Translations under genes and position numbers: made by a program | The notes under the pieces: generated by a model | Told to the model about the DNA's origin: nothing | What the model saw: the letters and a program-made list of their open reading frames with translations, nothing else | Databases searched by the model: none | DNA from: Prochlorococcus sp. MIT 1307 | Lineage (GTDB): Bacteria; Cyanobacteriota; Cyanobacteriia; PCC-6307; Cyanobiaceae | Direction of reading: 5' to 3' | Length of the DNA: 64,000 bases | Assembly: GCF_034092395.1 (NCBI RefSeq) | Contig: NZ_CP139301.1 | Location: 558,001-622,000 of the forward strand | In this document: one piece after another, positions 16,971 through 43,895 of the stretch | Layout: every line of letters begins with the position of its first letter | Numbering within the stretch: the stretch's first letter is position 1

Positions 16971-17276
16971 TTAATTCCTGAGTTTCGCAGCAGCTTTTTT
17001 CGTATCAGCCAAATCGTATGTATAGGTGTATGTCCTGTAATAAGTAGCTAAATCATGCCCTAATGACTTGCATGCACTTCTTGGGTCGAGGTCGCTATGA
17101 ATAGGCCTGGTGCCCTAACTGTATCGAATGTCCATCAAAACCAAATCTTCTAGGCCTTCAACATCCATCTTCTTGACCTGGTCTTGTAAATACTTCAACC
17201 ATTGCCTTGCTTGATATTTGGTTTCTTGTGGGTCGTAATTGTCAAGATTAAAAGTAATAGGTCTTTCTATGTTCAT
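16971..17276 (-). pseudogene. Tyrosine recombinase C-terminal remnant (stop-interrupted)
   Basis: Translating the minus strand gives IERPITFNLDNYDPQETKY, then LVLMDIRYS, a TAG stop, then in the same frame SDLDPRSACKSLGHDLATYY and a final Tyr-containing segment. This aligns with the last 100 residues of the intact integrase at 25546-26805 (ERPYTFGLDNYDP; DLRHAWGIRS; LDPRQSCKSLGHDI). The catalytic RHxW box is destroyed: His has become Tyr and the Trp codon is a stop. The N-terminal three quarters are missing. It is therefore a dead recombinase marking an old integration. Confidence 0.8.
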
Positions 17277-17279
17277 CAG

Positions 17280-17309
17280 ATCCTTTTACTAACAACTAAT
17301 TTGCGTTGA
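17280..17309 (+). pseudogene. Last ten codons of the element replicative helicase
   Basis: The sequence reads ILLLTTNLR then TGA, matching IPLLTTDLR at the very end of the helicase gene ending at 30317. Homology continues downstream into the shared leader and mini-genes, so this is the deletion scar of a once complete helicase gene. Confidence 0.7.
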
Positions 17310-17576: not shown

Positions 17577-17579
17577 GAT

Positions 17580-17768: not shown

Positions 17769-17899
17769 ATGACAAATGGAAGCCAACAGAAGAGCAAAGC
17801 ACAGGACCTATATCCCGTATATCAGAGTTCTTCATTAATGAACTAAACGAACTGCAAGAAGAACTTGATTGCCCTGACGAATTTACGCGAACGTCTTAA
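17765..17899 (+). pseudogene. Truncated soluble mini-protein, copy 1
   Basis: Starts MNDKWKPTEEQSTGPISRIS and matches the 71-residue protein at 30774-30989 through DCPDEF, then runs into the repeated tRNA flank and stops after four unrelated codons. The break coincides with the junction of element I and the flank copy at about 17880, so integration or recombination removed its last 28 residues. Confidence 0.7.
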
Positions 17900-17988
17900 A
17901 TGATTTCCGTAAAGACATAGGCCAAGAACATTCACCCAAACCCTTTATAACTAGTGATTGCAAGCCAGTTGCTAGTATTGATCTGGCG
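17878..17988 (+). repeat. tRNA-Ser 5' flank, copy A
   Basis: About 110 bases nearly identical to the sequence just upstream of the intact tRNA-Ser (46506-46616), including CTAGTGATTGCAAGCCAGTT. Homology stops after GATCTGGCG, before the tRNA itself. It is interpreted as the displaced right end of element I. Confidence 0.85.
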
Positions 17989-25545: not shown

Positions 25546-26805
25546 TTATTTGCTGAGTAAGGCGGCAGCCTTGTCTGCATCTAGTTGTTCATAAGTCGAG
25601 TTATAGGTTTTGTAGTGAGTAGAGATATCGTGCCCGAGCGATTTACAAGATTGTCTTGGATCAAGCTCTGAATAAATACTTCTAATCCCCCATGCATGGC
25701 GAAGATCAAGTAACTGGAAATTCTCAATTCCGAGCTTTTGAGCTTTGCGTTTTAGATAATTCAACCAATGCCCGCAGTGGTATTTGGTGATGGTTGGATC
25801 GTAATTATCGAGACCAAAGGTATAAGGCCTTTCTACCTCTAATAAGTTCCACCGTTCCACAAATTCTTGAGGCAACGCTAATGGAAATTTTTCATGCTTT
25901 TTCCGACCTTTTGGGAGGTTGATCGCATAAGCGGTGCCATTTTTCTTGGGTATTAAAGAAAAGGTTTCAGCAGGTCGAGTTCCGTAAACATATTGAGCAG
26001 CAGTTAGCCATCCATAAGGGAAGTGCTCTTTACTCCTGCCATGTTTATCCTTATATCCATCGAATCTGACTTGTAGTTTTCGCCTTCGTTCATCATCCTC
26101 CCGAACACTGTCGATCAACTGAATCAATAAAGCATCCTCAATAGCCTTTCTTTGCTTTGGCTCGTAGATCCCGACTAATTCATCAATAGCCTCTTCACCA
26201 CCCAAGTTGTTTGAAACAGCGAGGCGTTTTAGATACTGACAAGCCTTAATTCTTGAGTTTGTCTCAGGCTCAGTCTCGCTAGAAATCCAGTCCAACAAAA
26301 CATTTATGCTTAGATCAGCCTTTTGTGGAAGCTTCTTCAAAACAGAATCAATTCGCACCCAAGTTCGTTGGCTTTGAAGATTGGTATCTTTCTTTCCCTT
26401 CCAAAAAGATGCCTTTAAAACAGCGATTGCTTCTTCAAAGGTTCTAGTGCGTTGAGCAATTTGGATATCTGGAACGTCCCAAGGGTAAACATCAGGCAAG
26501 AAACCATTTGCCAGTATTGAATCCCAAAGTTGAACAACACGGTTTTCAACCGTAATCAAGGATCGAAGATCGGCAGGTAAGCGAAGAGAAACTTTTCTCT
26601 CCTTCTTTTTTTCAGTTCGAGTTGCGTAAGTACCTCTTAGATAGAAGTTGTTTTTGACGATTGTGATTCTTCCTCGAACACCTTTGATCTTTAATCTTGC
26701 GTTCAACTCGGAAACTAATTTCCGTATTTCTGAACCTGATTCCATATCGCTCTGGTCCTTAGAACCAGAGGCGCTTGCCAAATTTGTTGAAATATCCTGA
26801 ACCAT
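25546..26805 (-). CDS. Tyrosine recombinase (integrase) of element II
   Basis: A 419-residue site-specific recombinase that would integrate and excise element II at tRNA-Ser(UGA). An N-terminal arm-binding region is followed by a core-binding domain and a C-terminal catalytic domain with GTRPAETF (first Arg), a Lys in KNGTAYAINLPKGR, LRHAWGIRS (His/Arg box), LGHDI (His) and TYNSTY (Tyr nucleophile). An internal ATG at 26745 (MESGSEIRK) aligns better with the starts of the two other integrases. Between the two ATGs lies a mimic of the tRNA anticodon arm. The gene faces away from the adjacent att site. Confidence 0.88.
   Translation of the reverse strand: MVQDISTNLASASGSKDQSDMESGSEIRKLVSELNARLKIKGVRGRITIVKNNFYLRGTYATRTEKKKERKVSLRLPADLRSLITVENRVVQLWDSILANGFLPDVYPWDVPDIQIAQRTRTFEEAIAVLKASFWKGKKDTNLQSQRTWVRIDSVLKKLPQKADLSINVLLDWISSETEPETNSRIKACQYLKRLAVSNNLGGEEAIDELVGIYEPKQRKAIEDALLIQLIDSVREDDERRRKLQVRFDGYKDKHGRSKEHFPYGWLTAAQYVYGTRPAETFSLIPKKNGTAYAINLPKGRKKHEKFPLALPQEFVERWNLLEVERPYTFGLDNYDPTITKYHCGHWLNYLKRKAQKLGIENFQLLDLRHAWGIRSIYSELDPRQSCKSLGHDISTHYKTYNSTYEQLDADKAAALLSK
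26750..26770. other. tRNA-Ser anticodon-arm mimic at integrase 5' end
   Basis: CTCTGGT and ACCAGAG arms around a seven-base loop, the same stem as in tRNA-Ser, located between the two possible integrase starts. Candidate core-type recombinase site. Confidence 0.5.
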
Positions 26806-26879: not shown

Positions 26880-26895
26880 AGACCAGGGGAACATC

Positions 26896-26988
26896 TTAAA
26901 TAGCTTTTTAATGACCCAAACCCGTTATTACTAGTAGTTGCAAGCCAGTTGCTAGTATTGATCTGGCGACGTTATCGATCGTCCAATT
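26896..26988 (+). repeat. tRNA-Ser 5' flank, copy B
   Basis: Partly diverged copy of the tRNA upstream region. The last 50 bases, from CTAGTAGTTGCAAGCCAGTT to the tRNA start, are close to copy C. It joins directly to the tRNA half. Confidence 0.85.
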
Positions 26989-27030
26989 GGAGGGGTGGTC
27001 GAGTGGTTGATGGCTCTGGTCTTGAAAACC
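26989..27030 (+). pseudogene. tRNA-Ser(UGA) 5' half (att remnant)
   Basis: Forty-two bases identical to positions 1-42 of the intact tRNA-Ser at 46636. They include the acceptor 5' strand, D arm, anticodon stem and loop (CTTGAAA), and stop inside the 3' side of the anticodon stem (ACC then TCCCTC instead of AGCATG). This cannot fold into a tRNA. It is the original 5' half displaced when element III integrated. Confidence 0.92.
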
Positions 27031-27362
27031 TCCCTCACCTGATAAAGATTTTCCTCAAGAAAGATTGATATAACTGATATTTAATACCAAGCAAAAAATC
27101 ACAAGTTCGCATCCGTTCCCCATTAGTTACCCATTCTCATAAATTTCTCAATCTTGTTGTTTATTTAGTGATGACTCTGGTCTTTTGAACCAGAGTGCTC
27201 GATTCGTTGTGAGTCGCCCCAAAAGGTTGCTTTTTTATGAATGAACTGGTTACTATTTCCCCATAGCGGAGGCATTCATTACGCCGACGCAGCACCGAGT
27301 GGGAACTGAAAAGTACTGATCCTCGGGAATCTCAAAACCAACTGATTCCCCCTTTTATTCCC
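27031..27362. other. Element III left end, non-coding
   Basis: Gene-free. It contains a near-copy of the anticodon arm at 27175 and a segment (27195-27220) whose reverse complement resembles 46490-46510 beside the right att site. These are probably the left recombination arm and the promoter for the replication operon. Confidence 0.5.
27175..27195. other. tRNA-Ser anticodon-arm mimic at element III left end
   Basis: A perfect seven-base stem CTCTGGT/ACCAGAG with a seven-base loop CTTTTGA, like the anticodon arm of tRNA-Ser. No other tRNA parts surround it, so it is not a tRNA. Candidate secondary att core. Confidence 0.5.
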
Positions 27363-27743
27363 ATGAAAAGAGCTGCCAACAGATACTCAGATAAACCACC
27401 CCAAATCAAAATCAACGGAAAGATAATGGAGTCTGGTGGACCTGAATATGAGTTCAACCGGTGCCATTTCATTTACTACAACTATTTAATTGAACTGAAC
27501 TGGAAGCCCGATGCTGTAAATCCTCTTGAATGTATTGAAGAATCTTTTTGGCCTGAGGTTTTCAAACTTCTAAAAGAGGCCAAATACATTGGTCAAACTC
27601 AAGAGTTCTATCTCTCCCAAAGCGATAAATATTGCGATCAATTAGGGAAGGGAGAAATCAAGCCTTATTCAGACAAAACTCGTCAGTTCGGATGGAAAGA
27701 TCCTGCTACTGGTGAGTTCAACTGGCGTAAAGCAGAAGCGTAA
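27363..27743 (+). CDS. Hypothetical protein, 126 aa, first gene of replication operon
   Basis: A soluble, mixed-charge protein beginning MKRAANRYSDKPPQIKIN and ending GEFNWRKAEA. It contains several aromatic residues (CHFIYYNYLIELNW) and ends with a tryptophan-rich tail. I recognise no domain. It starts the tight plus-strand operon leading to the excisionase-like gene (10 bases downstream), prim-pol and helicase, so a role in replication initiation or copy control is plausible by position only. Confidence 0.6.
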   Translation: MKRAANRYSDKPPQIKINGKIMESGGPEYEFNRCHFIYYNYLIELNWKPDAVNPLECIEESFWPEVFKLLKEAKYIGQTQEFYLSQSDKYCDQLGKGEIKPYSDKTRQFGWKDPATGEFNWRKAEA

Positions 27744-27753
27744 GGAATAGGAA

Positions 27754-28089
27754 ATGCAAATAACTGAATCAGGGGCCGTCCCCTCCAATGCTCATATCGA
27801 GCAAAAATTGGATTTTCTATTGCATCGAGTCGACCAGTTAGTTTCAGCCCAAGCTTCTAACCAAGTGAGTTGGCTCTCTACTGGTGAATTAGGGAAGAAG
27901 GTCAATCGTGATGGTCGAACAATCCTGAAATGGATTAATGCTGGGAAATTTCCTGAACGGGTCATCAGAAAAGTCACACGCGGAGATGGTTTTATCTATC
28001 GACTTAAAGCTCCTGAAGCCATAGAAATCGCTCATAAAATCTTGATTGGTGTTGTTACTAATGAACGCCTGAAGAAGGGAGGGCTATGA
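27754..28089 (+). CDS. Excisionase-like winged HTH protein
   Basis: A 111-residue protein. An N-terminal helical segment (HIEQKLDFLLHRVDQLVSAQ) is followed by a DNA-binding unit: WLSTGELGKKVNRDGRTILKW, INAGKFPERVIRK. The pattern, a helix-turn-helix ending in a GKFP-type wing, matches excisionase/MerR-like HTH_17 domains that select the direction of tyrosine recombinase reactions. It lies one base before the prim-pol start, in the operon with replication genes, as expected for an excision-then-replicate programme. Confidence 0.65.
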   Translation: MQITESGAVPSNAHIEQKLDFLLHRVDQLVSAQASNQVSWLSTGELGKKVNRDGRTILKWINAGKFPERVIRKVTRGDGFIYRLKAPEAIEIAHKILIGVVTNERLKKGGL

Positions 28090-28090
28090 A

Positions 28091-28975
28091 ATGGAACCCT
28101 CTAAAAATTGGCGTCATGATGCCCGAAGGTTGGCATCGATGGAGGGCGAGTATGGCTTCCTTCCAATTAGACCTAAATCAAAAGCACCATTAATTCAGTG
28201 GCGTAATCATGTAGGGCTAACGATTGCTGAATGTTTATCAATTCCAAATTGCAGTGCTATTTCAGTCATTACTGGTTTTGGTTTGTTATGTCTCGACTAT
28301 GACGGCGAAAGTTCTCTGGACTATGCGGCTGAACAGGGTATTGATTTCACTGCAAGGTCCTGGCATGTCCGAAGAGATGAAAATCATTGGCGGTTCAAAG
28401 TTCTCTTTAGACCAACACCTGAGCAAATAGCGCAACTTCCAAAGGGTGAGTTCATTTCAAAACAAATCACCAAAAAATCTATAGATGGTGCAAAAGGTGA
28501 GGCTCTTGAATGCTTCTTAGATCGGGGACGCTACGCAATTGTTATTGGGAAACATCAAGACGGTGGCAATTACATTTGGCCGCCTGATTTTGGCCCTGAA
28601 CAATTAGTTGCTCCATCTAAGGAAGTGTGGAGATGGGTTCTCAAGATGGCAGAACTAAAAAAAGAACCACAAAAAAAATCAGTTCATCGCTTAACGAATA
28701 CCACAAGGCTTAAACCTTGTCCGATATGTGGAAGGGATTCAGATCTTTGGTGTGAAACCGACGGCACTTTGATTTTCTGCATGCCTGGTACCACCTTTAA
28801 CGCCGAGGATAAACATGGGGCGCTTTCAGTTGGTGATGTAATCGATGGCTATGCCCTTGTTAAACGAACGCCGATAGGCAGTGGAGATTGCCTGACGTTT
28901 AAGCCACATCGTTCAAAAGTTTTTCGAAAATATAAGGTCCCAATACGCAGATGCAGGAGGTCCTCCCGTGTCTGA
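28091..28975 (+). CDS. Bifunctional primase/polymerase (prim-pol) domain protein
   Basis: A 294-residue protein. The N-terminal archaeo-eukaryotic-type primase domain shows FLPIRPKSKAPLIQW, CLDYDGES with the metal-binding DxD, and RYAIVIGKHQDGGNY with the catalytic histidine motif. A C-terminal zinc motif follows (CPICGRDSDLWC, then FCMPG). Such proteins make primers on plasmid, phage and integrative-element DNA. Its 3' end overlaps the helicase gene by eight bases. Lack of an in-cis helicase domain is compensated by the separate helicase, together forming a two-gene primase-helicase pair. Confidence 0.8.
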   Translation: MEPSKNWRHDARRLASMEGEYGFLPIRPKSKAPLIQWRNHVGLTIAECLSIPNCSAISVITGFGLLCLDYDGESSLDYAAEQGIDFTARSWHVRRDENHWRFKVLFRPTPEQIAQLPKGEFISKQITKKSIDGAKGEALECFLDRGRYAIVIGKHQDGGNYIWPPDFGPEQLVAPSKEVWRWVLKMAELKKEPQKKSVHRLTNTTRLKPCPICGRDSDLWCETDGTLIFCMPGTTFNAEDKHGALSVGDVIDGYALVKRTPIGSGDCLTFKPHRSKVFRKYKVPIRRCRRSSRV

Positions 28976-30317
28976 AGAACCAAAGGAGTTGGCTTACTCC
29001 GACTTAATTGCCGACATCATTACCAGCATCAAAGCAGCTGATATTGATAGTCAGATGTTCTTGAGGGCAGAGTTTAAATCTGCCTTTAGGCGCACTGACG
29101 AACAAATCAACAGCGCACTCTTTCAGGCACTTAGCGATAACGAATTACCAAACAAGTCACCAAAGAAAAGACATGTAGATCTTCAGTCAGTGGAAACTCT
29201 TCAATACTCAATGGAGGGGTGGATGCTGAGAGGAGATGTAGGTCTTACGTACGGCGCATTTGGAACAGGCAAAACTACGCTTGCTTTGCATAAGGCGTAC
29301 AACTTTGCAAAAGGGAAAAACATTCTTGATCGAAATAAACCTTGTGAACCAGGGAAAAGCCTATTCATTGCGACTGACTCTGGATTAAGTCCATTAAAAA
29401 AGGCAATGCAAGATCTTGGCATTTCAGACGATGACCCCCTTATTTCAAACGGTCCACAACAGATGATTTTCTTTTGGGGCTTTGCTCCTGAGCAAGGTCA
29501 TTCAGCTTGGAGTTGCGACATTGAGGGAGTGATCAAACTCAAGCAATTCATACAAGAAGAAGAGCTTAACTATGTCGTTATTGACAGCGCAAAGTCCGTT
29601 AGTTCAAGAGGTGGATGGAACTACAGAGATAACGAGTCGGTTCGTTGTCTACTGACTTATATGAGAGAAATTATTTGCCAACCCAATGGAATTTTTGTGG
29701 AATTTCTCTCGCATGACGGAACAGAAAAAGGAGCACATGCAGGAGCGAAAAGTTGGGCCGAAGAACCTTCAATAGTGATTCAGTTAACCCCAGCAAAAGA
29801 CATCGAAGGGAAACAAGTAGGAATAAAAGCACAATTCAAAAAAGATCGTGCAGCACATACAGATCCGCGGCGGACTCTTAGTTTCAATTTGGATGAAGGC
29901 GAGATGGTTCTTTTAGAAGGAAGCAATGTTGTAGGTAACTGCAAAGAAGCCATTACACAGATTCTTTGGGAGGCATATCAAAGAGGTAATACAACTCTTT
30001 CCCGAAAGGACATCACTAGCGAGGTTTATCGATTACATAGAGCTTCCTCAAAAACAGTTGATAACACACTCGGTGCAATGGCAGGGCGCAGAGAGTTAGT
30101 GCGGCCCCATCGTGGGCATTACGCCTTGTCCCCAGCAATAATGCAACGCCTTTCCTATAAGACTCCGGATAAATTGGGAGGAAATATAAGTAAAACCATT
30201 GATATGACTAAGAAAAAGCAATTACCCGACCATATTCCCGAAGGGAATAGTGTTTTACCCAAGGGAAAAGCGTTGGGAACTCATCAAATCCCTTTACTGA
30301 CAACTGATTTGCGTTGA
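28968..30317 (+). CDS. RepA/RecA-fold replicative helicase
   Basis: A 449-residue P-loop ATPase starting at GTG within the end of prim-pol. Walker A is YGAFGTGKTTLAL (about 86-98); Walker B is NYVVIDSAKS (about 201-210). These and the AAA_25/RepA-like arrangement mark plasmid and phage replicative helicases. The C terminus holds a winged-helix-like stretch (TLSRKDITSEVYRLHRAS) that may bind DNA or the primase. The last ten codons survive in element I at 17280, showing the gene is an ancestral part of this element family. Confidence 0.8.
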   Translation: MSEEPKELAYSDLIADIITSIKAADIDSQMFLRAEFKSAFRRTDEQINSALFQALSDNELPNKSPKKRHVDLQSVETLQYSMEGWMLRGDVGLTYGAFGTGKTTLALHKAYNFAKGKNILDRNKPCEPGKSLFIATDSGLSPLKKAMQDLGISDDDPLISNGPQQMIFFWGFAPEQGHSAWSCDIEGVIKLKQFIQEEELNYVVIDSAKSVSSRGGWNYRDNESVRCLLTYMREIICQPNGIFVEFLSHDGTEKGAHAGAKSWAEEPSIVIQLTPAKDIEGKQVGIKAQFKKDRAAHTDPRRTLSFNLDEGEMVLLEGSNVVGNCKEAITQILWEAYQRGNTTLSRKDITSEVYRLHRASSKTVDNTLGAMAGRRELVRPHRGHYALSPAIMQRLSYKTPDKLGGNISKTIDMTKKKQLPDHIPEGNSVLPKGKALGTHQIPLLTTDLR

Positions 30318-30380
30318 TTACTTCCTGTCAGGGAGAGTATGGACCACACCATGAAATAGGTAAAGGAAGTCATTAGATTG
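30311..30380 (+). promoter_or_regulatory. Conserved leader between helicase and mini-genes, copy 2
   Basis: Matches 17303-17372, with the same complementary ACTTCC and GGAAGT arms and GGACCACACCATGAAA centre. Its start overlaps the helicase stop. Confidence 0.4.
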
Positions 30381-30441
30381 AAAAAGACTGTTGATGTCGA
30401 TAGAGGACCAACAAGTCACTCGCTATCGAGATGTTTATTTT

Positions 30442-30585
30442 ATGAATCGCCTTTTCTCTAATGAAAGATCTAAATGGTTGCTTGTAATAGGGCTCATAGC
30501 AATAGGAGCAGGCATCACAGGCAAGAATGTCATCTCTTACCCAACTGAATGCGTGCCTGGCACACCTTCTGAAGTCAGAACTTGA
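30442..30585 (+). CDS. Membrane mini-protein, 47 aa, copy 2
   Basis: Starts MNRLFSNERSKWLL with one hydrophobic helix (WLLVIGLIAIGAGIT) and tail SYPTECVPGTPSEVRT. A longer start at 30391 exists but is out of frame in copy 1, so I favour the shorter protein. First of three coupled mini-genes that follow the helicase. Function unknown. Confidence 0.55.
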   Translation: MNRLFSNERSKWLLVIGLIAIGAGITGKNVISYPTECVPGTPSEVRT

Positions 30586-30588
30586 GAT

Positions 30589-30777
30589 ATGAGTTTTGCT
30601 GATAACTGGGCGAGGGTATTTGTCGTGATTACTTTTCTAGGTTTTGGAGAAGCGCAGATTATTGGAGGGATCGTCCCCAACCTGATCGCCTTCGGACTAT
30701 TTGTCGGGGCGGTTGGATACTTTGCTTTAACTGGCAAGATGGCAGAAATGTTTGGTCTAAAGAAGTCATCCAAATGA
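30589..30777 (+). CDS. Membrane mini-protein, 62 aa, copy 2
   Basis: Starts MSFADNWARVFVVITFLG with two hydrophobic stretches (about 9-21 and 28-49) and a basic tail. It differs from the copy at 17580 mainly by I/V and D/N exchanges. The start is 3 bases after the previous stop and the end overlaps the next gene by four bases. Retention of the frame in the decayed element I as well as here argues for selection. Not a family I can name. Confidence 0.65.
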   Translation: MSFADNWARVFVVITFLGFGEAQIIGGIVPNLIAFGLFVGAVGYFALTGKMAEMFGLKKSSK

Positions 30778-30989
30778 ATGACAAGTGGAAGCCAACAGAA
30801 GAGCAAAACACAGGACCTATATCCCGTGTCTCGGAGTTCTTCATTGATGAACTCAACGAATTACAAGAAGAGCTTGATTGCCCAGATGAATTTATTTATG
30901 ACTTCATGGAAGCAATAAGAAATCGTTGCTCACCTGATAGCTGCCATGCCCAAGCGAGGAAACTCAAAAGAGAGAATCCTGATTACTAA
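30774..30989 (+). CDS. Soluble acidic mini-protein, 71 aa
   Basis: Starts MNDKWKPTEEQNTGPISRVS, followed by an acidic helix FFIDELNELQEELDCPDEF and a basic end ARKLKRENPDY with two cysteines (RCSPDSC). The element I copy lacks the last 28 residues. It is coupled to the upstream membrane gene. Its amphipathic acidic middle suggests a protein-interaction role; nothing more can be said. Confidence 0.6.
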   Translation: MNDKWKPTEEQNTGPISRVSEFFIDELNELQEELDCPDEFIYDFMEAIRNRCSPDSCHAQARKLKRENPDY

Positions 30990-31011
30990 AAATCCTTGAT
31001 AGATTTCAGAG

Positions 31012-31110
31012 ATGCCTCTAAAGAAACCTATTCCTGATTCAGTTATTCGCTTTTGGAAAAAGCAGTTTCAAAAGATCAGAGAAATGATCGTTAAACCTTC
31101 TAAAAAATAG
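31012..31110 (+). CDS. Possible 32-aa basic peptide
   Basis: MPLKKPIPDSVIRFWKKQ begins a very basic peptide ending KPSKK. It lies 22 bases after the previous gene on the same strand. Too short for certainty. Confidence 0.3.
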   Translation: MPLKKPIPDSVIRFWKKQFQKIREMIVKPSKK

Positions 31111-31128
31111 AAAAAGACTTGCTTGTTA

Positions 31129-31293
31129 ATGACTCTTACCTCTCATAGACAACACAAGATTTACCTCGCAGCAACGATGGGATATGGACTTGGTTCAGAT
31201 GATCCGGAAGAGATCGCCTACTACAAAAAGGTCAAGGAGGAGATCAATAAGGACAAGGAGAACAGAAGTTTGGGAATACCCAGGGAGGACTAA
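31129..31293 (+). CDS. Small charged protein, 54 aa
   Basis: Starts MTLTSHRQHKIYLAATMGYG, continues with DDPEEIAYYKKVKEEINK and ends IPRED. Strongly charged and helical. Its stop overlaps the start of the next mini-gene by one base (TAATG), supporting translational coupling and reality of both frames. Function unknown. Confidence 0.45.
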   Translation: MTLTSHRQHKIYLAATMGYGLGSDDPEEIAYYKKVKEEINKDKENRSLGIPRED

Positions 31294-31421
31294 TGCGCTA
31301 CTTCTGGCCTATCGCTCGTATCGTTTTCTGTCCGCTCACAATCCTGTGTATTTACCTCACCGTCACAGAGCCACCAGCAGATAAGCAAGAGCAAAGCAGT
31401 AGCTACTCTGTATCTGATTGA
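31293..31421 (+). CDS. Small membrane protein, 42 aa
   Basis: Starts MRYFWPIARIVFCPLTILCI with a single hydrophobic segment (about 4-24) and a polar tail. It overlaps the upstream gene by one base and is followed by a terminator-like hairpin, so it ends the mini-gene operon. Family unknown. Confidence 0.45.
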   Translation: MRYFWPIARIVFCPLTILCIYLTVTEPPADKQEQSSSYSVSD

Positions 31422-31433
31422 CAGTCGACTTTC

Positions 31434-31462
31434 AAGGGGGCCATCTAGGTCCCTTTTTTATT
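31434..31462 (+). terminator. Terminator-like hairpin after mini-gene operon
   Basis: AAGGGGGCC and GGTCCCTT pair with one G-U and one bulge around ATCTA and are followed by a T-run. It fits the end of the plus-strand operon. Confidence 0.6.
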
Positions 31463-31603
31463 GCCTTATTGAGAACCTAAGGGTCCTTTTTTAGGTTTTG
31501 GAGTGGGTCGTCCGAAGGCTTCAAGTCTCTCTAGGTTTCAACCTTTCAAATAGGAGACACCCTTCACCAGTCTCAAATGCATAAGAACTCTTATAGATAG
31601 CGT

Positions 31604-31882
31604 TTAAGCAGGTTTAGGGGATGCAGCGATTTGTTTAGCTAACTCATTTAAATACTCATCAGGATCAAAGTCGATGATCTCAATATTTGTACTGCGATAA
31701 GCCAATACGCCCATGCAATGCCTTGCGAGAGAATCCTTCCCACTGGGCTTCATGTCTAAATATCGTTTACCTTCAATCGTCTCCTCATAGTCTTTTAGCC
31801 ATCCATCTCTTCTTAATCGATAGAGCGTCGCTCTTGATTTCCACCCCAAAAAGCGACTGGCTTCTGAATAACTACAAAGCAT
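31604..31882 (-). CDS. Helix-turn-helix DNA-binding protein, 92 aa
   Basis: Contains SYSEASRFLGWKSRATLYRL followed by RRDGWLKDYEE, an HTH_17-like winged-helix unit at the N terminus, then an acidic tail (DFDPDEYLNELAKQIAA). Similar small regulators sit in phages and integrative elements. It faces the opposite way from the replication operon and may regulate it or the cargo. It is the first minus-strand gene of the cargo half. Confidence 0.6.
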   Translation of the reverse strand: MLCSYSEASRFLGWKSRATLYRLRRDGWLKDYEETIEGKRYLDMKPSGKDSLARHCMGVLAYRSTNIEIIDFDPDEYLNELAKQIAASPKPA

Positions 31883-32179
31883 TGATTAAACAAGAAAAGT
31901 GGTATGACTGGACTTCGCTAGAAGAGCCCTAAATAAATTGTTATGAGAGATATGTTAGGTAGCTTTTTTGTTAACTGTCTCGAAACAAGAGTTCTGACGC
32001 TAGCGAATAAACGAGCATCGAATACACCCACAAACAATGCTCTAGGAAGGACCCTTAAAGGAGATAGGGTTGAGTTAACAAATTTCAGAATTAATCATAA
32101 GTATATACAGGAATTTGGAATGAATAGAGAGGATAGAAGTCATTCTATAAATATAAATAAGGAACCTAGCTAAATAAAG

Positions 32180-32593
32180 CTATCGACAAACAAATTCTAC
32201 GAGCTTAGGGTTTCCATCTGTCCATCCGGCGTTTGGTCCTTTGGTTAATCCCCGACTACAATCAGCTTGCCATGCATTATCTTTCCAGATGTGACCTTCT
32301 TTATTTCTACATGCTCTATCTAATTTTGTAACATCTAAATTAAAGTAGACATAATTACCTCTCTTGACGATTGATTTTGCATCAACGTTCCATCCCAATC
32401 CGTATGTACCATCTTCCCTGAAGGAACCATCTTCATTTCTATTAAGAATATGATATATAGTTCCCTTCTTCGGGTTGGGTGCGCATGCTGCAGAAACTCT
32501 TACCCATACACTTTTTTGTTGTGCCCAAACATTTAATGGTGTTACCACAAAACTAGTTACTGCTGTAATAATTAAAGTTCTGAGAATTGACAT
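32180..32593 (-). CDS. Secreted protein, 137 aa
   Basis: Signal peptide MSILRTLIITAVTSFVV with cleavage near VWAQ, then a compact mature domain with four cysteines (SAACAP, DRACRN, ADCSRG, EFVCR), likely two disulfides. Many Trp/Tyr/Gly residues suggest a beta-rich fold. I do not recognise the family. It belongs to the envelope-directed cargo of element III. Confidence 0.6.
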   Translation of the reverse strand: MSILRTLIITAVTSFVVTPLNVWAQQKSVWVRVSAACAPNPKKGTIYHILNRNEDGSFREDGTYGLGWNVDAKSIVKRGNYVYFNLDVTKLDRACRNKEGHIWKDNAWQADCSRGLTKGPNAGWTDGNPKLVEFVCR

Positions 32594-32670
32594 AAAGTCA
32601 GATTTTGAGTCCTTAGTATTTTATATTAAAACAAAAATAGAACTTACTTAACATAAAAGGCGTCATAAAA

Positions 32671-33876
32671 CTAATTACAATTTGCTGCCATACGTGGATA
32701 GTACTCTTTATCGTAAGAGGGATGAGAATCTAGTGAAGCCGCCTTTTTAAAATCATTACAAGCATCTTCACGATCATAGAACGTTAATTTGTCCTCTAGC
32801 ATTGCTCTCCCAAAATAAGCACCAGCATTATTGATATCTATTTTTAAGGCGCTTGTATAGCTATCAAAAGCTCCCTTGAAGTCTTGCATTTCTGTTTGAG
32901 ACTGAGCCAAGAGTGTGTAAACCATATCTAGCCCTTTATATGAAGTAACATTCATGGCGAGTGCATTTTTAATAGCATTTTTGTAATCATCTATAGCATC
33001 ATTATATTGTTCTAAAGACACCTTTTCTATAGCTCTAAAGGTAAAGGCAAGATGGGAATCTGGAAAAATGGATAGTGCTTTTGTATATTCAATTATTGCT
33101 CCTCTATGATTTTTTAATTGACTTTTTTTACGTGCCTTTTGCATATGGGAATCAAATTGAGTGGTCGCTATATTTCTAATATCTTGCATCACCTTATTTA
33201 CTTTAGGATGCATCTTTCTGTTCTTTTCTTGTTCTTTTATTTTTGAAATCTCTTGCTCTAAGCCTGTAGAGAACCAAATTATTGCCTTAGAGTAATTATA
33301 ATCATATACTAACTCGACACCTTTTGAAGTCATCGGATATTTAGACATAGTATCTTTGTCTGTATAAAGCTTACTCTTTTTGTTCTTTGAAAGTCGAGAA
33401 ATATAGTATACATCTTTAGAAAGTGTATTAACACATTTTTTAAAAACTTTCTTAGCATTAAAATCCGTTTTAGACTGATAATTAGAGATAAGATTACATT
33501 GATCATTTATTTTACCTTTATAAGGCCTAAGTGGATCACTGATTATTGAATTAGTGATTAAAGTAATTGGAACTGCAACAATTAAAATTCGAAAATAATT
33601 GTTCGCGTATAAAGACTTTAGGTTGTTAATAATATGATTAATTTGTACGTCAGATAATAAGCTTTGCTTTTTAATAAATGCTCTTAGGCAGTGATTAAAT
33701 GAGTCGCTGAAAGGTGTAAAAGATTTACTAAGCTTATTTCTTAATGAATCTAAGTCAAACGGACTATTCCTTAGAACATTTAATTGACCACAAAATTCAC
33801 ACCTTTCTTTCTTTGAATCCTTGCTCCAATTTATTGGGGCTCCACAACGACTACAATTGCTAGGAATATCATTCAT
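32671..33876 (-). CDS. Zinc-ribbon / transmembrane / TPR protein (paralogue 1)
   Basis: About 401 residues. The N terminus has a zinc ribbon CSRCGAPINW ... CEFCG, then a soluble linker, one hydrophobic helix (IVAVPITLITNSII) followed by the family mark DPLRPYKGKI, a middle domain, and C-terminal TPRs (for example AIIEYTKALSIFPDSHLAFT and GAFDSYTSALKIDINNAGAY). I use the ATG that gives MNDIPSNCSRCG because paralogues start MKNIP. The ribbon should face the cytoplasm and the TPRs the periplasm or thylakoid lumen. Four paralogues occur in element III (32671, 36212, 41943, 43896). Function unknown. Confidence 0.7.
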   Translation of the reverse strand: MNDIPSNCSRCGAPINWSKDSKKERCEFCGQLNVLRNSPFDLDSLRNKLSKSFTPFSDSFNHCLRAFIKKQSLLSDVQINHIINNLKSLYANNYFRILIVAVPITLITNSIISDPLRPYKGKINDQCNLISNYQSKTDFNAKKVFKKCVNTLSKDVYYISRLSKNKKSKLYTDKDTMSKYPMTSKGVELVYDYNYSKAIIWFSTGLEQEISKIKEQEKNRKMHPKVNKVMQDIRNIATTQFDSHMQKARKKSQLKNHRGAIIEYTKALSIFPDSHLAFTFRAIEKVSLEQYNDAIDDYKNAIKNALAMNVTSYKGLDMVYTLLAQSQTEMQDFKGAFDSYTSALKIDINNAGAYFGRAMLEDKLTFYDREDACNDFKKAASLDSHPSYDKEYYPRMAANCN

Positions 33877-33975
33877 TCGCATATGGGTCTTCACAAAGAA
33901 ATCATGACTGTATAACAATAAAGCACAGGATTATTATTTGATCTAGCATGTCTACATATATTAATTCATTATTAT

Positions 33976-34584
33976 ATGAAAAATCCCATTAGCTTATTCA
34001 ACCTTCATTCACTAGTAAATCAAGTGGGAAGGAGAACACTAATCAGTACTGGAATTGTATTAACGAGTACCGCACTAATAGCTTTTTCTTCTCAAAAATT
34101 ATATGCAGATGATGACACTTTTATTCAGGGTGTCAAGAAATTTACTGCTGGGGATCATTATGGAGCAATTTCTAATTTTACTAAAGCTATTGAAATATAT
34201 GGCCCTAAATCTATTAAGTTACCTCTTGTGTATACGTCACGGGGAAATGCAAAAAAAAATCTAGGTGACTGCAATGGTGCTATTGATGACTTCAATAAAG
34301 CAATTCAAATAAACCCAGATTTCGCAATTGCTTATCATTTTCGTGGACATTGCCGTACTATATTTGAGGATTTTCACCTTGGACTATCTGATTTTACAAC
34401 AGCTATTAATCTCGACAAAGAATTAGGAACGCAATTAAGAGAATATAAAGGTAGTACCTTTTATCTTAGAGGATTAACAAAATATATTTTGAATGATTAC
34501 AAAGGGGCATGTATTGATTACAGAAAAGCTTTGGCCTTTGGAGAAAAAGAAGCTGCTGCTCGCATTACAGAAGATTGTAGCTAA
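33976..34584 (+). CDS. Exported or anchored TPR protein, 202 aa
   Basis: An N-terminal hydrophobic segment (TLISTGIVLTSTALIAFSS) with probable cleavage before DDDTF, then about three TPRs: GDHYGAISNFTKAIEIYG, GDCNGAIDDFNKAIQINPD, and FHLGLSDFTTAINLDK. The C terminus repeats the DYKGACIDYRKALAFGE unit. TPRs bind partner proteins or peptides. Divergent from the zinc-ribbon paralogue 1, and followed by a similar gene. Probably periplasmic. Confidence 0.65.
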   Translation: MKNPISLFNLHSLVNQVGRRTLISTGIVLTSTALIAFSSQKLYADDDTFIQGVKKFTAGDHYGAISNFTKAIEIYGPKSIKLPLVYTSRGNAKKNLGDCNGAIDDFNKAIQINPDFAIAYHFRGHCRTIFEDFHLGLSDFTTAINLDKELGTQLREYKGSTFYLRGLTKYILNDYKGACIDYRKALAFGEKEAAARITEDCS

Positions 34585-34664
34585 AGGAATATAAAGAGTT
34601 AAGTTAATATTGTTATTTTACTACATTTATATTTTACTCTTTGTCTCTAATAGCATCAATTTAG

Positions 34665-35372
34665 TTGAACAATCTTTTCTTGAATTTAGTTCGAGCAAGT
34701 TTACTGACCCTTGCAGTGATGATTGCTTCCCCCAAAGTATATGCAGAATTGATCAAGGATCCCAAGATAGATCCAATAGCCAAAGCTGCAACCAAAATTG
34801 GGAATGAAGATTATTACGGAGCAATTTATGAGGCCAATAAAGCACTTGAAATTTATAAAGAAAAGCCTAACAGGGCTTTGGCTTATTACATCCGTGGTCT
34901 TTCAAAGAAATCTTTGAATGACTGCAATCAGGCTATATCTGACTTTGATAAATCAATTGAACTTGACCCAAAAAGAGCGTTATATTATTTCTATCGTGGT
35001 CAATGCAAAGGGGAATTAGAACAATTCTATGATGTGATTTCTGATATGAATCAAGCTATTAAATTAAACAGACTATCAAGTGTAGGAATAGGGAAGCAGG
35101 ATTTAGTTGGTATCTATTTTCAAAGAGCAGTAGCAAGATTTATGACTGGAGACAGAAAGGGATCAATAAATGATTACACTTTTATAATTGACTTTAACAA
35201 TGACTTCCCTAATACCCGAGGAGATACTACTAATAAAGGGGATGCATACTATGGTAGAGGGTATAATAAGAAGTTTTTAAATGATATAGTTGGTGCTTGT
35301 TATGACTTCAGAAAGGCCTTATCTTTAGGGCACATGCATGCTAATGAACAGCTCAAGGAGAGTTGTAAATAG
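34665..35372 (+). CDS. Exported TPR protein, 235 aa
   Basis: Starts at TTG with a signal peptide (NLVRASLLTLAVMIASPKVYA), then TPRs: EDYYGAIYEANKALEIYK, NDCNQAISDFDKSIELDPK and later units, ending in FRKALSLGHMHANEQL. It resembles its upstream neighbour in order and wording, so the pair arose by duplication. Likely periplasmic, with a scaffold role. Confidence 0.6.
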   Translation: MNNLFLNLVRASLLTLAVMIASPKVYAELIKDPKIDPIAKAATKIGNEDYYGAIYEANKALEIYKEKPNRALAYYIRGLSKKSLNDCNQAISDFDKSIELDPKRALYYFYRGQCKGELEQFYDVISDMNQAIKLNRLSSVGIGKQDLVGIYFQRAVARFMTGDRKGSINDYTFIIDFNNDFPNTRGDTTNKGDAYYGRGYNKKFLNDIVGACYDFRKALSLGHMHANEQLKESCK

Positions 35373-35499
35373 AGAACTTATTCTTATTCAAAATCTACTG
35401 CATTTATCGGAATTTGATTCCATAGCTGCGTTTTAACCTAAGAACTCTAGAAAACGGCCATGATTACAAGGAATTGCTAGATCTAACTGCGATTCTAGG

Positions 35500-36144
35500 A
35501 TGAGTCATCTTGTAGGCACCTCATTGAGTCGTTCAAGAAATAAAAACCTGCTTGCGGCTTCTGCCTTATCTCTATTGGTATCGCTGCTTCCTATCCCTGC
35601 CAAAGCAGCTTTGGATTGGACTGAAGATATGGAATCACTTATCAACGTCGTTTTGGCTGGTGCGTCTAAGACGATTGGCAAAAAAGCAGGTGCAGGACCT
35701 GTTCAATGGACATGGTGCGACAACACTTATTACGATTCCAGATCGAATTTGATCTGTTTAGAACAGGACTTCATGAAACAACTTTCAGAAGTTGGTGATG
35801 CAGCAGTTGCCTTTGTTGTTGCTCATGAATATGCCCATCACATTCAATTTACGAAGTCACAGCTAATAGCTAAGGCTCAAAGAAACACGATGAGAATTGA
35901 GCTTCAAGCAGATTGTTTTGCAGGGGTGATTTTATCCAGTATCCCTAATATCTCTTTTGATAAAGAAGACACAAAGGACATGATTGTGGCTGCAGCATTA
36001 CTTGGAGATAAAGAGTTTGATAGCCATGATCACCATGGTGCTGGAGAAAATAGAGCATTAGCTTTACGGTCTGGTCTTAGATTTGGTAGCACTAAAGGAA
36101 AAGTAAAAGACGCGTACTATAAAATGTTCTGTTTGCAAAATTAA
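35500..36144 (+). CDS. Exported neutral zinc metallopeptidase (YpfJ-like)
   Basis: A 214-residue protein with a signal peptide (LLAASALSLLVSLLPIPAKA) and the gluzincin-like core AHEYAHHIQ (HExxH, about 110-118) followed by ELQADCFAG (third ligand, about 137-145). This spacing and the ELQADC box define the YpfJ/COG2321 predicted neutral zinc peptidases. Predicted to act in the periplasm. It follows the two exported TPR genes on the same strand, which might bind its substrates. Substrate unknown. Confidence 0.75.
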   Translation: MSHLVGTSLSRSRNKNLLAASALSLLVSLLPIPAKAALDWTEDMESLINVVLAGASKTIGKKAGAGPVQWTWCDNTYYDSRSNLICLEQDFMKQLSEVGDAAVAFVVAHEYAHHIQFTKSQLIAKAQRNTMRIELQADCFAGVILSSIPNISFDKEDTKDMIVAAALLGDKEFDSHDHHGAGENRALALRSGLRFGSTKGKVKDAYYKMFCLQN

Positions 36145-36211
36145 AAAGTCCGTGGTGAAAGCCTAGGTCAATTTTTCTTGGTATTGATATTGGCTGTTAT
36201 AAAGTAAAAAC

Positions 36212-36739
36212 TTATATGACCAAAACAATAAAGATTAGCAAGGAAATTATAGTACCAATAAAAGCATATTGTCGACGGTTATTTTTTCTGACCAATTCCC
36301 GAATACCTGTAAATAAACCCAAAATGGAAAAAAGGATTGGAACAACAAATAGAATTGGTGTAGATCCTGTGGGAAAAACACTAAGGATAACAATCCCCAT
36401 TAATAATGTTAGCAAGGCCAATAAGGAAATAGGTAATGAAACAATTAACGAAGATTTTCGATTAATTCCAAACGCATTCTTAAGACATATTTTCAAACGG
36501 TCTTTTGAGTAAGACTGAAGTGAAGATGGTTTATTCGAATATTGTTTTGGCTTTTGAAACTCTGCTGAATTAGAAATAATTGTTTTACTTCGATTTTTAG
36601 TTGAAACTTGGTAAGTGCTAGAGCTTTTAACCTCTAAACTATGAACATAGCCGCAAAAATCGCATTCGATTATTTGACTAACTTTGTCCCAATAAATTGG
36701 GGCACTACATTTTTTACATTTATCAGGGACGTTTGCCAT
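36212..36739 (-). CDS. Zinc-ribbon membrane protein (paralogue 2, no TPR)
   Basis: A 175-residue protein starting MANVPDKCKKCSAPIYW with the ribbon completed by ECDFCG, then a Ser/Lys-rich linker (KDRLKICLKNAFG) and three hydrophobic helices at the C terminus (about 100-175). It shares the N-terminal design of the other paralogues but lacks the TPR part. Co-directional with the coiled-coil membrane gene and the SPFH gene downstream on the minus strand. Confidence 0.65.
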   Translation of the reverse strand: MANVPDKCKKCSAPIYWDKVSQIIECDFCGYVHSLEVKSSSTYQVSTKNRSKTIISNSAEFQKPKQYSNKPSSLQSYSKDRLKICLKNAFGINRKSSLIVSLPISLLALLTLLMGIVILSVFPTGSTPILFVVPILFSILGLFTGIRELVRKNNRRQYAFIGTIISLLIFIVLVI

Positions 36740-36825
36740 TAGTGATGAATTGATGAAATTTTTCTATTAGAGAAAAAAGTTGAAAGATATTTACAAAAAA
36801 GGATATGATCTAATTTCATATTTAA

Positions 36826-37503
36826 TTATTTAATTTGTTTTAGAGAAATTAAAACCTGGTTTTCATCATTATTAGCTTTAATCTTAGAGAGATTTTTTAT
36901 TGATTCTTTTGTTCTGAAATAGGAACTAAACTCTACTATCTCTTTAATTCGTGTTATCTCACTGATGATCTCACTGTTATCTAAATAATCAATTGATGCT
37001 TGCTGTAAATAACTTTTCCAGGCTTTTCGGTACTCTATGGACTTATTTCTGAATTGAGCATTCTCTTCTGAGACTTTCTTCTGTTGTTCTTCTAATTTTC
37101 GGTTGGTCTCAGTCCATGCTTTTTTCTTGTCCACTAATGCCTTATTAGATGCAGAAAATATCTCAGCAATGATGGTGTTTGCGATTAATGGGGTGACGAT
37201 GAGGAAAATTGAGACTTCATTATCGATGCTCTTCAATAGGTTCAATAAAATTGAAAAGCTAGAAATGGATAAACAGATGGACAATACATTTGCAGTTCCA
37301 AATTTAACGATTCCACTCTCTCTCTTATTGCCAAGAACTAGCTGAAGTTGCAGGACAAGCAGAAACGAAACAACTAAATAAGAAATAAATGGGACTACAG
37401 CTTCTAGATCTGTAGAAGCCGAATTGCTCTGAACAGCAAAGAGGAATGTCCAGACTCCTATTAATGGGAGCCAGAGAATCGGCAGGGCTCTTTTTAGCTT
37501 CAT
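36826..37503 (-). CDS. Membrane protein with cytosolic coiled coil
   Basis: A 225-residue protein with four hydrophobic helices in the first half (about 8-25, 37-57, 66-90, 98-118), then a long charged coiled coil (NRKLEEQQKKVSEENAQF) and a helical C terminus. No enzyme motif is visible. It follows the SPFH gene by 31 bases on the minus strand and may associate with the SPFH assembly in the membrane. Confidence 0.55.
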   Translation of the reverse strand: MKLKRALPILWLPLIGVWTFLFAVQSNSASTDLEAVVPFISYLVVSFLLVLQLQLVLGNKRESGIVKFGTANVLSICLSISSFSILLNLLKSIDNEVSIFLIVTPLIANTIIAEIFSASNKALVDKKKAWTETNRKLEEQQKKVSEENAQFRNKSIEYRKAWKSYLQQASIDYLDNSEIISEITRIKEIVEFSSYFRTKESIKNLSKIKANNDENQVLISLKQIK

Positions 37504-37534
37504 ATTCTTATGGCGTTATTTCTAGTCATTCTGT

Positions 37535-38503
37535 TTATAGATCATCCAGTATTTTGGCTTTCCGATCGTTATATTCACTTTCAGAGATCAGCCCAGAATC
37601 AAATAGATCCTTGAGTGATGAGAGTTTCTTTTTGAGATCACCGTTCGAATCAGTTTGACTTGAGCCGCCAAAATTAATACCTCCTAAACCCTTTGATAGC
37701 AATTGACCTGCAACACCTGTGTCTTTTTCTGCAGCTTTATTCAGAGCATCCAAAGCGCGTTCTTGTTGGTAAAAGCCTTGAGTCTCTGAGGCGGCTTTTG
37801 CACGAATGCGCAGACTGGCTGCATCAGCAAGACTTTCTTTGATCTTCTTGTATTCGGGATTGTCTCCAATGACTTCAATGCCTTGGATATAGAAATCGAT
37901 CAGTTTTAAGCCAAACCTTTCGAAGGTTCTATCAATAGACCTTTTCGTATCGGCAGAGGCTTCAACCAAAATTGATTCAATCGAGAAAATATCAAGTGAC
38001 CCTTTTTTGATTTTGTCGGCGATATAGTCTTTCAAACTTCTCTCGATATTAGGAATCAGAAATTCTTTTAGTTCTGTTTTATTCATTGACATCTTCTTGC
38101 CCACAACTTGTAGGACTAAAGATGCAGGGTCATCAATCCTCAACAGCATTGAGCCATAGGAACCGACAGGAACAATGAGTTGATGCGCTGTGTCTTTGAC
38201 TTGTAACTGAACACCCCATTTGTAGTCAGTTGATGAGGTCTTACTAACGAACCAAATATCAATCTTTATCGGAGAGTTATTTCCTAATGATCTTCTGATT
38301 ACACCATCTAAACCTGGGATATTTCCTGATTCGATTAAATGCCTTCCGGCTTTAAGGATGTGTAAAAGTTGCCCATTTTCAAATAGCAATGCCTCTTCGC
38401 TTTCATTGACAAGGACTTGAGAGCCAATAGCTATCTCTCGTTTGGGATGTTTCCATACCAAATAATCCTTGCCAGAGACGCTTTCTATGGTCGCTATCGC
38501 CAA
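37535..38503 (-). CDS. SPFH-domain protein of the YdjI/COG4260 type with SHOCT tail
   Basis: A 322-residue protein. LVWKHPKREIAIGSQVLVNE, EALLFENGQLLHILKAGRHLI and SGNIPGLDGVI are hallmarks of the COG4260 (YdjI, 'virion core'-like) SPFH proteins. The SPFH body ends near residue 215, followed by an Ala-rich coiled coil, a glycine-rich spacer and a C-terminal SHOCT motif (LKDLFDSGLISESEYNDRK). In Bacillus the relatives work with PspA and zinc-ribbon membrane proteins in membrane stress. The zinc-ribbon paralogues here make a similar partnership plausible. Confidence 0.75.
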   Translation of the reverse strand: MAIATIESVSGKDYLVWKHPKREIAIGSQVLVNESEEALLFENGQLLHILKAGRHLIESGNIPGLDGVIRRSLGNNSPIKIDIWFVSKTSSTDYKWGVQLQVKDTAHQLIVPVGSYGSMLLRIDDPASLVLQVVGKKMSMNKTELKEFLIPNIERSLKDYIADKIKKGSLDIFSIESILVEASADTKRSIDRTFERFGLKLIDFYIQGIEVIGDNPEYKKIKESLADAASLRIRAKAASETQGFYQQERALDALNKAAEKDTGVAGQLLSKGLGGINFGGSSQTDSNGDLKKKLSSLKDLFDSGLISESEYNDRKAKILDDL

Positions 38504-38590
38504 TGGTCAAAGCACGAGTCGATGCATTGTATATGAACCAAACCATTGATCTATACCTGTACAACAATTCCTATACGAATGAATCCTTAA

Positions 38591-39820
38591 TTATTCATCT
38601 TTATTTGAATATTTCATCACTAGAGATAGAACAACTACAAGGAATATAGGAATCAATATAAAGTATTTACGAAGCAATTCAGAAGCCTTATCAGTGAACT
38701 TCTCGAACTCATAATTCTCCTTGTTCTGTTCTATCTTCTTATCATCAATCCCTTTGCATGCAGCTACTAGGCTTGTCTCCTCGTCAAAAAGCTCATCGAG
38801 GAAGGAATCAGTATTAGCCTTTTCTTTGATAAGAAGATTACTTGTGTCTTCTGCTCCAAGTGATATGCCTTTGAGAATATCTGTACATGCTTCATCTCGA
38901 TCATCCCAAAACTTTTCTAATCCTTTTTGAAAATATGCTTGACCATTTAGTGGATCTATTTCGATAGCCTTTTCAAAGTCTTTTGCGGCTCCTTTGTTAT
39001 CACCAGTTTTACTTTTAGATAGAGCCCTCCTAAAATAGAATTTATCGAAGTTCGGGTTGATTTCGTTTAGATCAAGTTCTTCTCTCTCTTCTTCATTGAG
39101 TTTTTCCCATAAGACTACGAGTTTGTTTAAGTCGTTAATAGAACCTTTATAGTCGTTGATCTCGTACTTAGCCATACTGCTCAGGTTCAATGCCTGAATA
39201 TTATTTTTATCTGCCTTTAGCTTGATATTGGAATCTTTAACTGCACCCAAATAATCCTGAACCATATATTTTGCAAAGGCTCTTTGGTAATAAGCGTCTT
39301 TGTTTTTGGTTAACTCAATCTCAGAAGTGAAGTTCTCTATTGCATCTTGCCAATTCTCATCCTCAATATTTTTCAAACCTGCTTGCAAATAGTATCCATC
39401 TGGTCTGACACCTTTTAATAGTCTTTCACCTGGGCCATCACATTGATATTCCGAATCAACTTTTTTAGCTTTGCATGTGTATTGAACTAGCTCATCTTCC
39501 TCAATCTTATATTCATACAAGCTGATCGAACTCCGTCCCCAACCTTTCTTGACTCTGTCTTCTATTGCTTTATTCAGTTGCCCTTTCTCTTGAATAAGTT
39601 CACCTTGCTCATTAACCTTATTAATCATCCCATTTGATTTAATGCAGTATTTAAAAGTTTTATCTTTAGGAGTTACAAAATCTGGGTTATCAATACAATC
39701 AGACTTTTCTTTATAAGCTTCACTTGGATTAGCAAGACTTGGCGCAGGCAGTAGGCAATAAAGACTTGTAAGTAAGGCTAATGAAGTCTTTCTAGTTATT
39801 TCTTTTTTCAAGATGGTCAT
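38591..39820 (-). CDS. Exported, C-terminally anchored TPR protein
   Basis: About 409 residues from the ATG giving MTILKKEITRKTSLALL; a further 19 residues are possible from 39877. Signal peptide cleavage is likely near SLANP. The N-terminal part has six cysteines in the first 150 residues. TPRs follow (NWQDAIENFTSEIELTKN; GAAKDFEKAIEIDPLNGQAY; and more). The C terminus ends in a membrane helix (YFILIPIFLVVVLSLVM) and NKDE. Type I topology would put the TPRs outside the cytoplasm. Confidence 0.65.
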   Translation of the reverse strand: MTILKKEITRKTSLALLTSLYCLLPAPSLANPSEAYKEKSDCIDNPDFVTPKDKTFKYCIKSNGMINKVNEQGELIQEKGQLNKAIEDRVKKGWGRSSISLYEYKIEEDELVQYTCKAKKVDSEYQCDGPGERLLKGVRPDGYYLQAGLKNIEDENWQDAIENFTSEIELTKNKDAYYQRAFAKYMVQDYLGAVKDSNIKLKADKNNIQALNLSSMAKYEINDYKGSINDLNKLVVLWEKLNEEEREELDLNEINPNFDKFYFRRALSKSKTGDNKGAAKDFEKAIEIDPLNGQAYFQKGLEKFWDDRDEACTDILKGISLGAEDTSNLLIKEKANTDSFLDELFDEETSLVAACKGIDDKKIEQNKENYEFEKFTDKASELLRKYFILIPIFLVVVLSLVMKYSNKDE

Positions 39821-39883
39821 TTCTTTTGGAGCATTATCCCACAACTTTCTTAAATGCAATCTCAAGAGATAGGACACTGATGA

Positions 39884-40033
39884 TCAATCCTCTTCTTTGA
39901 GGAGAATTAAACCTGAAGCAACAACAACAACAGTAGAACTAATCACGACGGATCTCTCTACTTTTATTAGAGACAAGCCAGCAGCCGTGGCAGCACCAAA
40001 TCCAAAGGCAACTGCAGTCACTAGGGGCTTCAT
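39884..40033 (-). CDS. Small two-helix membrane protein, 49 aa
   Basis: Starts MKPLVTAVAFGFGAATAAG and has a second hydrophobic stretch (VVISSTVVVVASGLILL) ending KEED. The start overlaps the upstream nuclease stop by one base, implying coupled translation, so I prefer it to a longer TTG- or ATG-initiated frame. No known family. Confidence 0.5.
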   Translation of the reverse strand: MKPLVTAVAFGFGAATAAGLSLIKVERSVVISSTVVVVASGLILLKEED

Positions 40034-40887: not shown

Positions 40888-40931
40888 TGCTCAATCACTT
40901 ACGGAATAGAACTCTTTGATGATTTCAAGTG

Positions 40932-41713: not shown

Positions 41714-41719
41714 ATCTTT

Positions 41720-41851: not shown

Positions 41852-41942
41852 TAAAATATTCTTTTCTCATTAATAGCTAAATTTGATTTTTAAATGTTCT
41901 TTTATAGTGAATTTATTGATATTTTTCTGCAAGGAATGCAAA

Positions 41943-43610: not shown

Positions 43611-43616
43611 ATCTTT

Positions 43617-43748: not shown

Positions 43749-43895
43749 TGGAGTACTCCTTCCAGCAAGAAAGAGCAATTTAATTTCTTTCCCATTATTA
43801 GTTTTAAATTTTTACTAACCAGATATAGATAGCAGGGCATGGAAAGTAATAGATCATTGAAAACCTAATAATCAGAAAACCACCTCGCAAAGTTT

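Follow-up and report, generated by a model that had tools for sequence, protein, structure and literature searches.

An integrative element in Prochlorococcus sp. MIT 1307 appears to supply the 5' half, and probably the promoter, of the only intact tRNA-Ser(UGA) gene

In the 2.03-Mb one-contig genome of Prochlorococcus sp. MIT 1307 (G000), a stretch of ~19.6 kb, hereafter element B-C, lies between a displaced 5' half of tRNA-Ser(UGA) (copy B) and the intact gene (copy C). With a probability of roughly 0.87, this stretch is an integrative element that belongs to a picocyanobacterial family with lambda-Int-like recombinases, has the anticodon loop of tRNA-Ser(UGA) as its recombination site and supplies the upstream flank and nt 1 to ~42 of the gene. 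The element would thus contribute the front half of the tRNA and probably also its on-switch. Positions refer to the window, the whole 64-kb stretch of DNA that was analysed (G000:C1:558001-622000), and the features are collected in Table 1.

Repeated 5' halves of tRNA-Ser(UGA)

Copy C is 87 nt long, from G46636 to the discriminator G46722, and the exact 42-nt match of copy B to its beginning confirms the preliminary description, in which the half tRNA ended at base 42 of 87, in the 3' side of the anticodon stem. Identity between the two copies stops after ACC, in the 3' strand of that stem, and the bases directly after it are TCCCTCACC in copy B (from 27031) and AGCATGTCC in copy C. Upstream, the likeness continues into the flank, with 95% identity over 117 bp between 26914-27030 and 46561-46677, including ~75 bp of upstream flank. 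The ends of the element can be moved within the 42-nt repeat, inside which the crossover cannot be placed from G000 alone. A chance origin of the copy B stump was excluded by the 42-nt identity, by the same stump in the relative G003 and by stumps in further genomes.

The inventory of tRNA-Ser(UGA) in G000 consists of the intact copy C, the half copy B, copy A, of which just the flank is present, and a 3' remnant, copy D, at G000:C1:622816, ~0.8 kb past the window end. The region to the left of copy B (26890-26988) belongs to a sequence with 87% identity over 2.3 kb to the IntB right end of G004. As copy B adjoins, on its left, the right end of an IntB-type element, the promoter now in use has probably replaced an earlier one that was itself a replacement. 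Further to the left, positions 16019-17988 are a fossil patchwork of an Int-downstream module, a stopped Int C-terminal fragment, a helicase-downstream region and a tRNA flank.

Table 1. Positions of tRNA copies, recombinases and element features in the window
Feature	Position	Strand	Remarks
Fossil Int C-terminal fragment, TAG stop	16980..17282	-	53% to IntB aa 320-417
Copy A, fossil upstream flank lacking its tRNA	17877..17988	+	94% to 46504-46615
IntB, tyrosine recombinase of older stacked element	25546..26805	-	88% ortholog beside intact tRNA in G004
Anticodon-arm-like palindrome, start of IntB	26750..26770	.
Copy B upstream (promoter) flank, right end of older IntB-type element	26890..26988	+	89% to flank of copy C, 80 nt
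Copy B, displaced tRNA-Ser(UGA) 5' half (nt 1-42), left attachment site	26989..27030	+	identical to 46636-46677
Integrated element B-C, ~19.6 kb, left junction to end of element-supplied tRNA 5' half	27031..46677	+	direct repeat; G003 left junction
Anticodon-arm-like palindrome, 145 bp inside left end of element	27175..27195	.
Small left-end element gene, weak excisionase-like match	27754..28089	+	phrog_66 E 0.018; 80% in G003
Primase-polymerase-like protein	28091..28975	+	Pfam Prim-Pol E 2.7e-4, just under curated cut-off
AAA ATPase/helicase-like protein	28968..30317	+	Pfam AAA_25 E 1.7e-12
IntC, tyrosine recombinase of element B-C, pointing away from tRNA	45282..46400	-
Element-borne upstream flank of copy C	46504..46635	+
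Copy C, sole intact tRNA-Ser(UGA): nt 1-42 element-derived, nt 43-87 resident	46636..46722	+
IntD recombinase, downstream of tRNA	46855..48009	+	remnant D beyond window end
Anticodon-arm-like palindrome, start of IntD	46866..46884	.

A family of divergent tyrosine recombinases

IntB, IntC and IntD are homologous, with 26-36% identity (26% for IntB against IntD), and neither Pfam, PHROGs nor NCBIfam provided a family name for them, marginal integrase or XerC matches excepted. Four residues (R224, R322, H345 and Y354 in IntC numbering) are invariant across 19 homologs, and the predicted structure of IntC, a single 372-aa ORF that is not split (pLDDT 86.5, pTM 0.62), has lambda integrase 1z1b as its best match (Foldseek E 3.8e-5). 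In addition, the family profile matches an archaeal XerC-like recombinase (E 0.005). Therefore, on the conserved R, R, H and Y and the match to the lambda Int fold, the three proteins are lambda-Int-like tyrosine recombinases.

IntD, on the other side of the tRNA, is probably of the opposite (3') polarity, and its side may correspond to the classical 3'-restoring type. This assignment draws on where IntD lies and on remnant D, because IntD itself clusters with the Int of G284, and the G284 element has left a 5' stump; remnant D begins in the variable arm and not at the anticodon loop.

The same site in close relatives

The chromosomal frame of the site runs from nrdJ (12150-14489) through tRNA-Ser to a conserved gene at ~69.9 kb on the window scale, an interval of 3.4 kb in G006, 5.6 kb in G005 and ~55 kb in G000. 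In G003 an identical 42-nt stump (L041:9757-9798) is followed, from the same base, by a homologous left end (TCCCTTGCC) encoding proteins with 80% and 59% identity to those at 27754 and 28091, and the flank upstream of this stump is unlike that of G000. The IntB ortholog of G004 (88%) stands immediately before an intact tRNA-Ser, and in G002 a decayed 5' half precedes ~4.8 kb with Int remnants and then an intact tRNA. Therefore, the junction is not confined to G000. G005 and G006 have no Int match, and their flanks are 88-91% like those of copies B and C; these flanks may be leftovers of inexact deletion, or may be native there.

Origin of the upstream flank and 5' half

The native arrangement was observed in another Cyanobiaceae genus, g35, where the end of nrdJ is followed after ~85 bp by tRNA-Ser, and where the intact tRNA carries this nrdJ-linked flank in G300, G276, G304, G282, G294, G144 and others. 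In G270, of the same genus, the native flank, 96% identical over 80 nt to that of G300, stands before a 5' stump only, and the intact tRNA-Ser, ~28 kb from the stump, has a flank with 59% identity, which is background (shuffled mean 50.5%, 95th percentile 60%), while genus-typical terminator-like sequence follows its 3' half. Similarly, the two flanks of G026 are 61% alike, and the one on the element side is 75% identical to that of G000 and 72% to that of G050, both from other genera. Such elements therefore put sequence of their own in place of the promoter region and the 5' half of the gene. At the level of sequence, the anatomy and the junctions are established, and the displacement of the native promoter region is seen directly when the occupied site of G270 is compared with the empty site of G300.

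For G000 itself, no native 5' half was found near nrdJ, the best score being under the shuffle maximum; the promoter swap in this genome is consequently argued by homology with G270, G026 and G003. That the element carries the flank and 5' half while the chromosome keeps the 3' half, as originally proposed, is thus directly visible in G270 against G300 and extends to G000 by homology. A simple sigma-70 scan of the element flank returned no promoter, and we infer that this flank would act as the active one.

Two polarities across Cyanobiaceae

Of 300 Cyanobiaceae genomes sampled, 31 had a match to IntB. Among those in which a tRNA adjoins the Int gene, Int points away from the tRNA 5' end at tRNA-Ser in G004, G270, G050, G026, G281, G228, G287 and G073, at tRNA-Arg in G009 and at tRNA-Leu in G163. 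It lies downstream of the 3' end of tRNA-Ser in G052, G259, G068, G140 and G188, and elsewhere downstream of tRNAs for Arg, Leu or Met.

Displaced tRNA pieces were located by a separate search with the tRNA as sole query, which revealed 5' stumps (nt 1 to nt 39-56) in G026, G287 (two), G270, G284 and G178. The 3' pieces, beginning at nt 26, 29 or 31 and reaching nt 88, came from G188, G294, G052 and G178, and each piece of either kind lay on the side and strand that its polarity predicts. As the two classes of pieces share just the anticodon loop and its adjacent stem, the crossover would fall in the loop if it is common to both, which is likely, and its position at nt 32-38 is what we infer from the overlap. 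Together with the end of the stump, this overlap upholds the earlier placement of the crossover within the anticodon arm. In G284 and G178 the Int gene adjoins the 5' stump and not the intact tRNA, so its position is an imperfect guide to polarity.

Five IMG/VR contigs with Int homologs (L138, L139, L140, L141 and L144; 17-70 kb) contain tRNA-Ser from nt 24-31 to nt 86-87, with the 3' fragment ~140 bp before Int and the 5' half absent, apparently a 3'-polarity attP on viral DNA. A free 5'-polarity attP was not found in IMG/VR: a 34-nt motif of the 5' half retrieved 46 contigs, none of them with a stump, as 45 contain an intact tRNA-Ser (ARAGORN) and in the last, at the end of the contig, the sequence continues into the 3' half. 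With IntD and G284 in the tree, the AU test rejected a single clade for the 5' polarity (p 7e-8), but it did not do so once the ambiguous rows were removed (p 0.16); given this conflict, no number of polarity switches is claimed.

Proposed course of integration and alternative explanations

In the proposed mechanism, the attP of the element would consist of the tRNA upstream flank, nt 1-42 and TCCCT, and IntC would recombine it with the anticodon loop. Integration would cut the tRNA gene at this loop and carry the old 5' half with its promoter to the far left end, as copy B, whereas copy C would be rebuilt from the flank and 5' half of the element joined to the resident 3' half. The element would have landed beside an older IntB element of the same polarity, so that the 5' side of the island would have grown by stacking.

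Because the crossover is unreadable within a long repeat in one genome, and because G005 and G006 carry C-like flanks (88-91%) without Int, it could be argued that the crossover took place upstream of the tRNA, with the flank and half of copy B belonging to the element and copy C, promoter included, wholly resident. This is very improbable, since the flank of the stump differs from the element flank in both G270 and G003, that of G270 being the native nrdJ-linked one, which sets the switch inside nt 1-42; moreover, relatives of 3' polarity break at nt 26-31. Still less credible is that copy B was left behind by a segmental duplication of, or homologous recombination in, the tRNA region, with no attachment site involved. 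Duplicated segments do abound in the island (the A flank, the Int-downstream module and the helicase-downstream region), but G003 breaks at the identical base with a homologous element after it, and the 5' stumps of other genera end at nt 39-44 in genomes with a recombinase of the same family.

If integration at the anticodon loop is accepted, the consequence for the host has to be considered. The preliminary description had the host tied to retention of the element, which would be unable to be lost because its DNA drives the only tRNA-Ser(UGA). The single intact gene in G000 would fit such a lock, as would the element-like flanks kept by G005 and G006 without the remainder. However, copy B retains 42 of 42 nt of the 5' half and a flank 89% identical over 80 nt, so the host should regain a complete tRNA gene, promoter included, if the element leaves precisely, and integration at tRNA genes is reversible in both polarities. 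A lock is therefore improbable, although less so than the two preceding alternatives. From this arrangement just imprecise deletion appears to be constrained, forced retention is unsupported, and element B-C would still be able to excise.

Relation to known systems

Elements that restore the 5' end are already known but rare, with precedents in PMC8371274, PMC6563490 and PMC4383910. Among the 3,919 islands of the Islander survey (PMC4383910), 3,760 have 3' fragments and 159 have 5' fragments, in agreement with the initial remark that the majority of elements restore the 3' end. At its far end, element B-C carries a 5' stump, where a classical 3'-restoring island has a 3' fragment.

The closest parallel is offered by archaeal pTN3-like integrases of Thermococcales (PMC8371274, PMC5495485), which have an attB in the tRNA 5' half, a 41-bp attP/attB identity with a minimal site at nt 2-44, comparable to the 42-nt repeat here, and a rebuilt tRNA that is separated from its original promoter and expressed from the integrase promoter; PMC8371274 states that use of the 5' half is seldom seen in bacteria. 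In contrast to element B-C, where IntC is whole beside tRNA-Ser, the integrase gene of pTN3 is split on integration, and its target is tRNA-Leu. The 5' tDNA islands of Islander (PMC4383910; Zhao and Williams 2002 via PMC6563490) likewise have a displaced 5' fragment upstream of the intact tDNA in the same orientation, and anticodon-centred sites are common among them, as here. Islander requires a match to Pfam PF00589, which the present recombinases lack, so its method should miss such elements. The passages available from either system, pTN3-like or Islander, describe no relative of opposite polarity or two-polarity family at one tRNA, unlike the family found here.

Within the group, Prochlorococcus tycheposons (Hackl 2023, via PMC10872708) resemble element B-C as tyrosine recombinase elements in tRNA islands with replication-type genes and cargo. 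The integrase of PMC10187409, compared by description only, is also a divergent tyrosine integrase upstream of tRNA in Prochlorococcus/Synechococcus islands, but its family occurs at tRNA-Phe or tRNA-Cys, instead of tRNA-Ser with homologs at Ser, Arg, Leu and Met, and its crossover and promoter were not mapped. What is new here are the recombinase family, the occurrence of both its polarities at a single tRNA and the documented promoter swap.

This is a clear natural bacterial case in which a single-copy tRNA gene has had its upstream promoter region exchanged by a mobile element, and in which occupied and empty sites can be compared. It suggests that the turnover of islands could change how tRNAs are expressed in microbes abundant in the ocean. 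The recombinase family has both attachment polarities at one tRNA and should escape Pfam-based island finders; with both polarities in one family, the question of why most elements restore the 3' end becomes testable. A more tentative reading, which we regard as possible but would not favour, is that one family uses the near-symmetric anticodon arm both ways, its members having switched the half they supply. The tRNA of G000 might then be all mobile DNA with no native part, its promoter and 5' half from the IntC element and its 3' half from the IntD element.

Further features of the island

Among the cargo of element B-C (32180-45182) are genes for TPR proteins, a Band-7 protein, a nuclease of the PD-(D/E)XK/Cas4-like type and two SNase-domain proteins that are related to each other. 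Beyond the tRNA, on the side of IntD, positions 49215-63751 (minus strand) hold a type I secretion locus composed of a 3,423-aa RTX/cadherin/subtilase protein, an HlyD protein and a C39/cNMP ABC exporter. The sequences downstream of IntB (24751-25500) and of IntD (48004-48729) both match one stretch of G004 with 80-87% DNA identity; such alike regions beside two recombinases with just 26% residue identity suggest exchange between elements.

The anticodon-arm palindrome of tRNA-Ser, CTGGT-n7-ACCAG, recurs in perfect copies at several Int gene starts and inside the element left end, and also in L047, L049, L053 and L056. A scan of the window gave six matches to it versus 0.12 expected, and these copies could serve as additional sites for Int to bind, for instance to regulate its own gene.
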